From Odoribacter sp. (GTDB taxonomy: Bacteria > Bacteroidota > Bacteroidia > Bacteroidales > Prolixibacteraceae), in contig PNOH01000010.1 in NCBI GenBank assembly GCA_013824715.1, positions 1-64,000 of the forward strand: a DNA stretch of 64,000 nucleotides, in the 5' to 3' direction. The notes below the pieces were generated by a model. The model was given only the letters and a program-made list of their open reading frames with translations, did not search any database and was not told the DNA's origin. This document shows positions 13,769 to 17,350 of the stretch, piece after piece; the stretch's first letter is position 1; every line of letters begins with the position of its first letter. The translations under genes were made by a program, and so were the position numbers.

Positions 13769-14692
13769 TTACTCTGCAACCTTGTGCTTGAGCGACTGGA
13801 ACCCTTCACCAAGGATTTCGCGGGTATCCATCACTGTGATGAAGGCATCCGGATCAATTGTGCTGATAAATTCCTCCAGAATAGCTACTTCTCTGCGGCT
13901 TACCACGGTGTAAATAATGTGTTTATCGTTTCCGGTAAACATTCCTGAGCCTTTCAGGTAGGTTCCGCCACGTTCCAGATCAACCAATATTTTATGCCTG
14001 ATTTCCTCGTACTTTTCAGAAATGATCAATAAAGCTTTGTTGTAATCGCCTCCCTCCAAAACCAAATCAATGGCCCTGCCTGTAATGTAAATGACCACCC
14101 ACGAATAAAGCGGAATCTGCCAGTCTTTAAAGGCTACCAAACTGAGCAAAACGATGGTTGAATCAATATAAATCATCAACTGACCGAGTTGCATACGGGT
14201 ATATTTGGCAATAATCATGGCGATGATGTCGGATCCTCCTGAAGTTGCACGCGCTTTGAAAATCAATCCAAGTCCGAACCCAATCAGCACGCCGCCAAAC
14301 ACGCACGAAAGCAGGACGTCCGGCACAAGTGGGGCATCGCCGTCAACACGCATGTAAGTGATTACATCCATAAAAACTGAAGAAAGCACAAAACCAATCA
14401 CCGTTTTTACTCCAAACCGTGGCCCCAGAATTTTGATGCCAGCTATAGTAAGCGGTATGTTCAGCACCAACCCAAATAACCCAATCGGGATACCTTCAGG
14501 CCAGAAAGAAAACATTCCCTGGGTCATGTAATGTACCATGATAGCGATACCGTAAACCCCGCCGGGAACAATCCGGTGGGGCGAAATGAAATAAACAAAC
14601 CCGACGGCCAGAATAAAAGCGCCGATTACAATCATGCTGTAATCGCGAAACCATTTCAGGCTGAAAATTTTGTCGTTTGGGATAAAGGTCAT
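13769..14692 (-). CDS. YitT-family membrane protein (DUF161-DUF2179)
   Basis: 307 residues: about five or six membrane segments (first ~205 residues) followed by a cytoplasmic DUF2179 domain (GDYNKALLIISEKYEEIRHK). Matches the YitT/YebE/YvjA family, proposed transporters of unknown substrate. Starts MTFIPNDKIFSLKWFRDYSM. The first 28 codons are about 88% identical in DNA to a fragment at 16087-16168, on the far side of the ATPase gene. It starts 37 bases after the ATPase stop with no convincing promoter between, so it may now depend on ATPase transcription. Confidence 0.88.
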   Translation of the reverse strand: MTFIPNDKIFSLKWFRDYSMIVIGAFILAVGFVYFISPHRIVPGGVYGIAIMVHYMTQGMFSFWPEGIPIGLFGLVLNIPLTIAGIKILGPRFGVKTVIGFVLSSVFMDVITYMRVDGDAPLVPDVLLSCVFGGVLIGFGLGLIFKARATSGGSDIIAMIIAKYTRMQLGQLMIYIDSTIVLLSLVAFKDWQIPLYSWVVIYITGRAIDLVLEGGDYNKALLIISEKYEEIRHKILVDLERGGTYLKGSGMFTGNDKHIIYTVVSRREVAILEEFISTIDPDAFITVMDTREILGEGFQSLKHKVAE

Positions 14693-14729
14693 AGTAAGGG
14701 AAAAATTTAATGAATTGTTTGATAACGTA

Positions 14730-15959
14730 TCACATATTCTTTAGCAGAAAATCTTTTAGGTGAACTTGTTCAATCCCATGGTAATTTCTTCCGGAATTGT
14801 ATTCATCCATGGTTACCACGTATTTTGGATAGTTGTCGGGAATTTTCATCAAATTTCCAAATTCACGGTTTTCAGTATTCTCATCCATCAGTAGGTATGC
14901 AACCTGAATATAAATAGATTTTCCATCTTTTTCAGCAACAAAATCAATTTCCGTACTGCCCAGTTGTCCTACATACACCCGGTATCCAAACCGCAGCAAA
15001 TGAAGATAAACCGCATTTTCCATTACTTTGCTGATGTCTTTCCTGCGGTCGAATCCACGGATACAATTTCGTAGGCCAATGTCTTCGAAATAATATTTTT
15101 CCCCAACTTCAAATATTTTCAGGCCGGAAATGTCGTAGCGGGATACTTTGTAAACAAAAAAAGCATTGGTCAGGGGCTTCAGATAATTCAGAATAGTTTG
15201 AGTAGTAAAGGTAGCACGTTGCGACTTCAGGTATTTGGCAATATTACTGGCCGAAAACAGGTTCCCAACATTGTCAGCAAGGTATTCGATCAGGTTTTCC
15301 AGGAACTGAATATTCCGGATCCCTTCGCGGGCCACAACATCTTTCAGCAGAATGGTCGAGTAAACATTTCGCAGGTACTCAAACACCGATAATTCTTCCA
15401 GGCCAATCACTTTTAAATAGGGCATTCCTCCAACGGTCAGGTACTTGTTCAGGCTTTCAGTAGAATTTTCCAATCCAAAAAAATGCAAAAATTCTTCGTA
15501 GGAAAGTGAATGAACAGTGAATTCTATGTACCTTCCGGCTAATAAGGTAGCTAATTCACCTGAAAGCATATTGGCATTACTGCCACTGCAAAATATATCA
15601 CAACAATTCTCGACCAAAAGGCTTCGGAGTGCTTTCTCAAAATGTTTGATCTCTTGTATTTCATCAATAAAAAGATAGTTTTTGGTTTCTGCAATCAAAT
15701 TATCTTTGACAAATTGATAGAGCATGTTGTCATCGGCAATTTCTTCATGAGGTTTTAGCTCCTTATTGATATAGATGATATTGGCCAACGGATTTGTCCG
15801 TTTGATTTCGGTGATCAATTGGAAAAGAATATAACTTTTCCCCACTCTGCGCTGCCCCGTAATAATTTTAATGATTTCTTTATCGATAAACGGCTTAATT
15901 CGTTCGGTATAAACCGGACGGGGTATGAATGGCCTTATTTTTAAAATTTCATCTATCAT
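14730..15959 (-). CDS. AAA ATPase with DUF4143 domain
   Basis: 409 residues from ATG 15959 (a TTG-started extension to 15995 is less likely). N-terminal P-loop ATPase: Walker A TGQRRVGKS, Walker B YLFIDEIQE. The C-terminal DUF4143 region ends in a restriction-endonuclease-like strand pair (GSTEIDFVAEKDGKSIYIQV) in which the usual ExK is QVA, so nuclease activity is doubtful. These genes are often multicopy in Bacteroidota and their role is unsettled. Here it sits between an intact yitT and a duplicated scrap of the yitT 5' end, so this segment looks inserted. An inverted-repeat promoter region precedes it. Confidence 0.88.
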   Translation of the reverse strand: MIDEILKIRPFIPRPVYTERIKPFIDKEIIKIITGQRRVGKSYILFQLITEIKRTNPLANIIYINKELKPHEEIADDNMLYQFVKDNLIAETKNYLFIDEIQEIKHFEKALRSLLVENCCDIFCSGSNANMLSGELATLLAGRYIEFTVHSLSYEEFLHFFGLENSTESLNKYLTVGGMPYLKVIGLEELSVFEYLRNVYSTILLKDVVAREGIRNIQFLENLIEYLADNVGNLFSASNIAKYLKSQRATFTTQTILNYLKPLTNAFFVYKVSRYDISGLKIFEVGEKYYFEDIGLRNCIRGFDRRKDISKVMENAVYLHLLRFGYRVYVGQLGSTEIDFVAEKDGKSIYIQVAYLLMDENTENREFGNLMKIPDNYPKYVVTMDEYNSGRNYHGIEQVHLKDFLLKNM

Positions 15960-15990
15960 GAATAATATTTGCTTACTGAAATAAGAATTT

Positions 15991-16041
15991 GTCAATTACG
16001 ATTGACGAAAATACAAAAATATATTCATTTGTCAATCGTAA
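15991..16041. promoter_or_regulatory. Inverted-repeat promoter region of the ATPase gene
   Basis: TTACGATTGAC (15996-16006) and GTCAATCGTAA (16031-16041) are exact inverted copies separated by 24 bases. A third GTCAAT arm at 15991 makes GTCAAT-TACG-ATTGAC. The -7-like box TATTTTTG (minus strand, 16014-16021) lies between the arms, so they could be an operator for autoregulation (inference). Confidence 0.55.
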
Positions 16042-16075
16042 AATGAGTTGTTTCATTAACTCTAATATCAATCAC

Positions 16076-16160
16076 CAGAAATTGATGCGCCGATTAAAAT
16101 CATGCTGTAATCTCTAAACCATTTCATGCTGAAAATTTTATCGTTTGGGGCAAAGGTCAT
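16076..16160 (-). pseudogene. Duplicated 5' fragment of yitT
   Basis: Reading from ATG 16160 gives MTFAPNDKIFSMKWFRDYSM and a few more residues of YitT-like sequence before similarity ends near 16076. Bases 16087-16168 align with 14619-14700 with 10 mismatches in 82. The rest of the gene is missing. With the ATPase gene between the copies, this looks like the old yitT start left behind by an insertion or recombination. Confidence 0.8.
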
Positions 16161-16315
16161 AGCGAGGATTTTTGGTTGAAGCACAAAGGAACACAGGATA
16201 TTCGGTTTCTCCTGTGATTTTTGTCAACGAATACTTTTAATTGGAAGTAATTTTGCCGGGTTGTTCAAACAGTTGGTTCGTTCGATCTATCAATTGTCTT
16301 TTAAACCAACCGGGA

Positions 16316-17350
16316 TTATAGTTTTCTCACAAACCCGTCGCTCAAATTAACCGCAACCGAAATGATATTGCTGGTTCCGGCCAAATGATACCTTGCTGAT
16401 CCGTAGTTGAGTTGAAACCGGGAAATCCTGACACCAAATCCCCACGAAAATCCGACGGTTGACATTTTTTCATCAAGGCGTAACTCCTGCCTGATCTGGT
16501 AATTATACCCAGCTCGGATAGTGAAATTCGGAGAAGGAAGCAGCTCAATTCCCAACACCAGATGGCGCATGAATTTTTTAGTAAAGTTCTCTTCTTTCAA
16601 AACGGGTATGATTCCAGTGTTATCTTCAACAGGTTTGGCCAGATCCCATTTTTGCAGATGTTGCATAGTTGCCGCAAATCGTATTGGTGCATGTTGAAGT
16701 CTTTTCGAAATTCCAAACTGAAGGTCGAACGGTATGGATTCCTTTTCCGCCCCTTCGTAATAAGTGGTAATCTGTGTTCCAATGTTTCGTGCAACCAGAG
16801 AGACTACTGAGAACCTGTTTTTACTGAAATAACTTAATCCTAAATCTGCGGCAAATCCAACAGATTGATAGTTCTCGAATGATGAAAGTATTGGTTTAAG
16901 GTTGATGCCGTAGGTTAACCGATTGTATTCGTGCGACCAGATCATGTTCAGCGCATATTCAGCAGCATTAAAAGTTGCTCCGGTCCGTTCTCCGTTCGGA
17001 AGCGCTTCTATAAATTTGCCATAGTTAATGTAATGCAAACCTACGGCAAAATTCCCGGGAAGAGGAGTGTCAAAGGAATAAGCGGCATAACCATAATTGA
17101 CCCCGGCAAAATAATCGACATAATTCAAAGCCATCATATTCTTCATTTCAGGCCTTAATAAGGAAGGATTATTGTAGGATACATTGAGGTCGAGCGAGTC
17201 GCTGAGAGCAATTTGATTTCCGCCCAGAGCCGCCATTCGTGCCGAGTTGGTCAGGTTCAGAAAGTCGTAGGTTGACTCGCCGCCAACCTGGCTGAAAGCT
17301 TTTGGATAAATACTTGCGAGAAGGATAATCAGGAAAAGAAGTTTGCGCAT
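16316..17350 (-). CDS. porQ: Type IX secretion system protein PorQ
   Basis: 344 residues, family length. A signal peptide ends near AFSQ. GGESTYDFLNLTNSARMAALG is the diagnostic PorQ/PorV-type N-terminus, followed by an outer-membrane barrel. PorQ belongs to the attachment complex (PorU, PorV, PorQ, PorZ) that processes type IX cargo and anchors it at the cell surface. No other T9SS component or cargo with a clear C-terminal domain was recognised in this window, in keeping with the scattered T9SS genes of this phylum. Confidence 0.92.
   Translation of the reverse strand: MRKLLFLIILLASIYPKAFSQVGGESTYDFLNLTNSARMAALGGNQIALSDSLDLNVSYNNPSLLRPEMKNMMALNYVDYFAGVNYGYAAYSFDTPLPGNFAVGLHYINYGKFIEALPNGERTGATFNAAEYALNMIWSHEYNRLTYGINLKPILSSFENYQSVGFAADLGLSYFSKNRFSVVSLVARNIGTQITTYYEGAEKESIPFDLQFGISKRLQHAPIRFAATMQHLQKWDLAKPVEDNTGIIPVLKEENFTKKFMRHLVLGIELLPSPNFTIRAGYNYQIRQELRLDEKMSTVGFSWGFGVRISRFQLNYGSARYHLAGTSNIISVAVNLSDGFVRKL

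Follow-up and report, generated by a model that had tools for sequence, protein, structure and literature searches.

A solitary DUF4143 ATPase gene beside a relic of the yitT start in an Odoribacter genome: probable one-sided import together with a neighbouring gene end

How does a complete gene come to lie between two copies of the start of its neighbour? The window, a stretch of 64,000 nucleotides from an Odoribacter sp. genome (contig PNOH01000010.1, positions 1 to 64,000), raises this question at yitT, where a gene for a DUF4143/AAA_14 ATPase stands between two yitT 5' ends (Table 1). The two copies form an ungapped direct repeat of 88 nt in the same orientation, identical at 76 positions (86%). 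An earlier note on this DNA had counted 72 matches in 82 positions (14619-14700 against 16087-16168), and our recount gave the same figure. One copy begins the intact yitT, and the other is a relic whose ORF translates as MTFAPNDKIFSMKWFRDYSMILIGASISGD and then stops. We used 23 same-genus genomes, including that of the window (G000) and its closest relative (G010), and searched 61 genomes for the YitT protein.

Table 1. Features of the yitT and ATPase region, in window positions.
Feature	Position	Strand	Remarks
Intact yitT (YitT_membrane and DUF2179), 307 aa	13769..14692	-	Pfam; orthologues in 20/22 other same-genus genomes
Intact repeat copy: first 81 nt of yitT and the 7 nt preceding the ATG	14612..14699	-	
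ATPase unit in common with the G021 homologue: 67 nt 5' of the ORF start to 1 nt beyond the stop	14729..16062	-	
AAA_14 and DUF4143 ATPase gene, 409 aa, ORF open to TTG at 15995	14730..15959	-	PADLOC PDC-S01
Imperfect palindrome GTCAAT(TACG)ATTGAC, 3' of the promoter box	15991..16006	-	
ATPase promoter box TATTTTTG, 62 nt ahead of the ATPase ATG	16014..16021	-	TAnnTTTG match
Relic repeat copy, old yitT 5' end	16080..16167	-	relic ORF 16068-16160, 30 codons
Native region 5' of yitT, collinear with G010, 77% over 141 nt	16169..16320	-	
Native yitT promoter box TTCCTTTG, 31 nt ahead of the relic ATG	16184..16191	-	

The ATPase protein exceeds the curated Pfam cut-offs for AAA_14 (105.4 against 27 bits, E 2.7e-30) and DUF4143 (67.6 against 28.1 bits, E 1.4e-18), and PADLOC assigns it to PDC-S01 (model PDLC04787, E 1.8e-147). 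Its Walker A motif reads GQRRVGKSY, the commonest form among the aligned ORFs (17 of 169). The PD-(D/E)XK-like site is degenerate, with the D retained and QVA in place of ExK; ExK is present in 112 of the 169 aligned ORFs, Q stands instead in 53, and the other 4 have neither. The predicted structure (mean pLDDT 77) best matched the archaeal AAA+/STAND-type ATPase SSO1545 (2fna, E 3.6e-9), and the next matches included NLR-type NTPases and clamp loaders. The box ahead of the gene fits the TAnnTTTG promoter box of Bacteroidota, and the promoter region contains a perfect 9-bp inverted repeat (15998-16006 and 16031-16039). With an ORF of 409 aa, these features bear out the earlier description of a complete DUF4143 ATPase gene with its own inverted-repeat promoter. 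The palindrome beside the box may be a putative autoregulatory operator of the gene. Palindromes with arms of at least 9 occur in the promoter regions of 26 of 164 ATPases versus 15 of 548 controls, which suggests that DUF4143 ATPases may be autoregulated.

Genes of this family are present in all 23 genus genomes (246 matches summed) and in 101 of 119 sampled genomes of the order, with up to 28 copies per genome. A second ATPase-nuclease family, PF09820, was above its cut-off in none of the 23 genus genomes. Relatives of the window ATPase are encoded in 236 plasmid records, 173 of them from Acinetobacter, and in another genome (G085:C168:405-2796) two equal-scoring DUF4143 matches lie 1.9 kb apart, probably as tandem copies. 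According to the available text of PMC12988326, PDC-S01 ranks fourth in frequency among prokaryotic defence systems. It is a phage defence candidate there, an ATPase fused to a PD-(D/E)XK-like domain as in the window protein, and the window member differs from this published candidate by its degenerate ExK.

Which of the two yitT starts is the old one? The native flank, collinear with G010, lies at the relic. A T...TTTG box is found at -25 to -33 from the yitT ATG in 20 of 20 relatives, and in G000 this conserved box precedes the relic and is missing ahead of the intact copy. Because the native flank and the conserved box both stand at the relic, we regard the relic as marking the native position, with the intact yitT now lacking its old leader. 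The position of the box also suggests that yitT would now be transcribed from upstream of, or through, the ATPase gene.

The YitT search gave a match in 57 of the 61 genomes and a truncated second start only in G000 (16077-16160, query residues 1 to 28, E 1e-8). Among the other same-genus genomes, G001 and G015 have paralogs only, and none of the 20 with a yitT orthologue has a second yitT adjacent to it. G010 has a single yitT and represents an empty site, at whose yitT start the sequences on either side of the insertion in G000 overlap by 80 nt; in further same-genus genomes, too, they abut or have an overlap of about 80 nt. A site of this kind, empty and with one yitT start, is what the earlier note had named as support for an insertion. 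The findings that it had named as contrary, both segments conserved in relatives or a widespread leader, were not seen in the 61 genomes, where the relic is confined to G000. In G011, another DUF4143 ATPase gene (L219:8085-9386), 41% identical, lies on the opposite strand upstream of yitT, and the intergenic region upstream of yitT has thus been hit twice in the genus by DUF4143 ATPases.

An old tandem duplication of yitT, with the ATPase gene later taking the place of one copy, has a parallel in G041 and G056, each with two full-length tandem yitT paralogs, although these are not relics of the G000 kind. (Nor is the yitT of G030, which is split across two frames.) We disfavour this explanation as very improbable, given the 20 same-genus genomes in which yitT stands without an adjacent second copy and the unit common with G021, which stops just outside the ATPase gene. 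Chance, an assembly error or a widespread paralogous leader is scarcely credible. The genomes are drafts or MAGs, but copies that are 86% identical are not explained by a collapsed or misjoined identical repeat, and chance and a paralogous leader are opposed by the confinement of the relic to G000 and by the control count (3 of 503) given below.

Repeats of this kind recur across the family. We picked 160 loci from the 246 matches in the 23 genomes, mostly the highest-scoring among the matches listed, with some added matches; together with the window they gave 169 ORFs of at least 340 aa, 157 of which have at least 300 nt on each side. When the 1.5-kb flanks were compared with a score threshold of at least 30, direct repeats flanked 15 of the 157 genus ATPases versus 3 of 503 control genes, a family count that includes L253, a tandem array, and L220, which like L192 and L169 has a different geometry. 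Repeats with tight geometry flanked 12 of 157 ATPase genes versus 2 of 503 controls, which makes chance a poor explanation for the window repeat. Inverted repeats of the same score were found in the flanks of none of the 157 ATPases and none of the 503 controls. The direct repeats range from about 40 to 680 nt, and about 90% of the family is without a detectable one. As the earlier note had anticipated, DUF4143 genes elsewhere are flanked by the duplicated 5' ends of their neighbours, for example glgB (L189) and a sigma-factor gene (L119); others are flanked by duplicated 3' ends, among them those of valS and of genes for an FAD-linked oxidase, ribosomal protein L9 and a transglutaminase. These repeat-flanked genes and the empty sites support the idea of an insertion or recombination that left the old yitT start behind.

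Some loci are more complex. At L175:4154-9173 (G004), the valS 3' end is present three times: at valS itself, behind a 3-kb insert of two genes (250 nt, 86%) and beyond the ATPase gene (102 nt, 78%). At L253:1-8093 the apparent end of another ATPase copy stands ahead of the upstream repeat copy, as in a tandem array of ATPase and gene end. Repeats were equally frequent in both nuclease classes (11 of 104 with ExK, 5 of 49 with Q), and a role of the ExK residues in repeat formation is therefore unsupported.

Outside the genus we compared two sets. In 20 loci of the order, repeats flanked 8 of 25 ATPases and 3 of 42 control genes; in 80 public loci drawn from many phyla, the figures were 12 of 80 and 3 of 152. 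The controls are few, the two sets overlap (L268 is the contig of L283, and L265/L288 and L198/L280 are apparently the same), and some of the repeats (L300, L302, L303, L327 and L337) are promoter-like palindromes, not host-gene ends. At these last loci, a palindromic operator-like sequence of 35-61 nt stands on both sides of the ATPase gene. Inverted repeats with a score of at least 30 flanked 5 of the 80 ATPases and 2 of the 152 controls.

What is the unit that moves? Among pairs of ATPases from different genomes with at least 78% nucleotide identity, neither flank was shared in 30 of 102, versus 43 of 344 in controls (P 1e-4), and the homology of such ATPase pairs usually extends about 30-170 nt upstream of the ORF and about 0-30 nt beyond the stop. 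The nearest homologue of the window ATPase, in G021, lies at an unrelated place with different flanks. In G001 and G021 another 5' relic precedes the homologue, namely 33 codons of a PDDEXK_3 (GxxExxY) gene, and the loci examined contained no further copy of that gene end nearby. The insert does not look like an insertion sequence or transposon: it has ATPase domains only, flanking inverted repeats were found in 0 of 157 cases, and offsets run from +225 to -218. In view of the variable offsets we also rejected a fixed, transposon-like target duplication.

Compared with their empty sites, 9 of 17 ATPase insertions had a target overlap of at least 20 nt, versus 1 of 21 other single-gene insertions (Fisher P 0.0019), the former fraction becoming about 8 of 15 because each of the pairs L183/L194 and L164/L212 probably stems from one event; L107 and L175 share one valS site, at which L175, the comparison partner of L107, carries a different insert. 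The other 8 of the 17 leave a gap of 31-225 nt instead, and the target offset is continuous from deletion (+225) to duplication (-218). Two further insertions of G000, L100 and L110, have exact empty sites in G010, with overlaps of 41 nt and 218 nt, respectively. In a wider count of inserts between homologous loci, overlaps of at least 25 nt occurred at 8 of 22 DUF4143 inserts versus 6 of 52 other inserts, but many of these overlaps come from gene arrays in L147, L200, L169 and L208, and the count of 9 of 17 versus 1 of 21 is the cleaner one.

The single control insertion with an overlap of at least 20 nt is a Fic gene (PADLOC SoFic; L154:983-2480, G013), flanked by a direct repeat (113 nt, 95%) of the 3' end of a GH9 gene, with an empty site in G016 and a target overlap of 120 nt. 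This candidate defence gene has the same footprint as the DUF4143 ATPases, a repeat of the neighbour's 3' end, although its Fic protein is unrelated to them. At L273:2723-3577 a Bro-N gene is flanked by a 70-nt repeat (66 identical), which, judged by its peptide, reads like the 5' end of a wecB-type gene.

How did the two copies arise? By an in-place long target duplication, the ATPase gene would have inserted near the yitT start and copied 80-90 nt of it, after which the useless upstream copy decayed. Such a duplication accounts for direct repeats of variable length around a gene and for an empty site without the repeat, and in the available text of PMC1643837 and PMC3031569 it is on record for restriction-modification genes. 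The divergence of the yitT relic (13 of 84) is about what the split from G010 would lead one to expect, third positions there differing at 85 of 276. The 13 differences between the relic and the intact copy are spread 5/3/5 over the codon positions, or 4/1/2 when only the gapless core is counted, a pattern that resembles decay and not an allele.

Six other loci argue against this explanation. A decayed target duplication should drift at all codon positions, yet third positions made up 29 of 36 differences at L110, 16 of 22 at L138, 18 of 26 at L107, 12 of 19 at L190, 5 of 7 at L258 and 2 of 3 at L119. Pooled, 82 of the 113 differences fell on third positions, 21 on first and 10 on second positions; this count omits the window as well as L253, a tandem array (18/23/63), and L220, whose geometry differs (4/2/6). 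This bias indicates that the copies at the six loci were formerly separate functional alleles, so that most repeats did not arise as target duplications with later decay. Consistent with an allele, and against decay, the relic at L110 is as near to G010 as is the functional copy (183 of 218 and 180 of 218, respectively).

Identity profiles of G000 against G010 also oppose duplication in place. At L100 identity was mostly 91-99% on the upstream side, whereas downstream it was 70-89% for about 800 nt and then 90-97%; at L110 it was 88-97% upstream, and downstream 73-86% for about 800 nt and then up to 92-95%. At L107 it was 86-96% upstream and 72-93% downstream, and the G000 valS was no nearer to G010 than to G022. 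In these three loci the DNA downstream of the ATPase gene looks foreign, on one side only. The profile of L189 showed no clear flank asymmetry.

At yitT, the first 84 nt of the intact gene are identical to G010 at all 84 positions, with 1 difference in the first 125 nt, and the remainder is about 88% identical. Third-position differences to G010 number 0 of 28 in the intact start versus 85 of 276 in the rest of yitT, and about 6 would be expected in the start, given the rate seen for this segment across 19 other genomes (P about 0.001). The absence of third-position differences points to a G010-like donor for the intact start and is at odds with duplication in place. No clear wider foreign tract was found at yitT beyond the first 100 nt, both sides being about 87% identical to G010, and no donor genome with the ATPase gene beside a G010-like yitT was seen, G010 itself being an empty site. 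A native allele that decayed after the import would fit both the G010-like start and the 5/3/5 pattern, whereas duplication in place would fit the latter only. The earlier note had read the divergence of the copies as a sign of age or of origin from another strain; the second reading fits better at most loci, given the third-position bias and the foreign tracts, and at yitT it fits in part. Pure in-place duplication, displaced as the main idea by the codon-position test and the G010 profiles, we retain as the main rival, unlikely but to be taken seriously.

A circle carrying the ATPase gene and a gene end might also have integrated by a single homologous crossover, with excision between the repeats re-forming the circle. 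One ordinary crossover would account for the repeats, the intact host genes and the allelic differences, and the tandem array of L253, with a second ATPase end before the upstream copy, would agree with it. However, foreign DNA should then end at the repeat, yet in L100, L110 and L107 it extends at least 0.8 kb further, and no circle was seen. We consider this route highly unlikely.

The best explanation, and in our judgement a probable one, is a one-sided homologous import of the ATPase gene together with the end of the neighbouring gene, the opposite side being joined illegitimately. The DUF4143/AAA_14 ATPase (PDC-S01) would be a solitary, horizontally mobile gene. A foreign linear piece would have entered at yitT, carrying the ATPase gene with its own promoter and, downstream of the ATPase stop, the yitT start of a G010-like relative. 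On the yitT side it would have recombined homologously within yitT, as suggested by the perfect identity to G010 at the start, which falls to about 88% beyond the first 125 nt; on the other side the piece would have joined the resident yitT near codon 27 with no extended homology. The resident 5' end, leader and promoter would have been left as the relic, the imported end would have kept yitT whole, and the direct repeat would consist of the resident and the imported allele. An illegitimate join inside the resident gene end would give a repeat and a join outside it a small deletion, so that the position of the join would generate the continuous range of offsets. We infer the order of events, the identity of the donor, the relic-side join and the transcription of yitT through the ATPase gene from the arrangement of the locus.

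One-sided import alone leaves the excess in DUF4143 genes over other inserted genes unexplained. The ATPase may have an active role in the import, though one via the ExK residues is unsupported. DUF4143/PDC-S01 ATPases might even be autonomous one-gene elements that direct their own spread, acting at the recipient locus, recruiting one-sided recombination and entering with the restoring gene end in a homing-like manner, an idea that we find rather improbable.

Restriction-modification insertions with long target duplication (Nobusato et al. 2000, as cited in PMC1643837 and PMC3031569) are alike, as far as the available text of the citing papers describes them, in having a transposase-free unit, long variable direct repeats of host DNA and an empty site in a relative. 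The window repeat has this geometry, an 88-nt flanking repeat with one copy at the empty site and an overlap of 80 nt against G010. The present case differs in that the cargo is a DUF4143 ATPase, most coding copies appear to be older alleles, and the adjoining DNA looks foreign. Homology-facilitated illegitimate recombination is known, in the accessible part of PMC3240628, from experiments with marker DNA, whereas here it would have acted at natural loci and be concentrated on one gene family. The literature on PDC-S01 within our search, which included the available text of PMC12988326 and lay mostly outside subscription papers, makes no mention of mobility by one-sided import.

Few uncharacterised genes are as abundant as those for DUF4143 ATPases, and the recurring transposase-free footprint offers a testable route by which solo genes may spread without gene breakage. 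The allele-level test used here (codon positions and one-sided foreign tracts) is applicable to restriction-modification insertions that have been called long target duplications. The footprint also raises the question of whether DUF4143 ATPases are defence genes, selfish genes or both. If self-directed spread were true, a very common 'defence system' would be at least partly a selfish mobile gene, one that could live harmlessly in gene-dense genomes.
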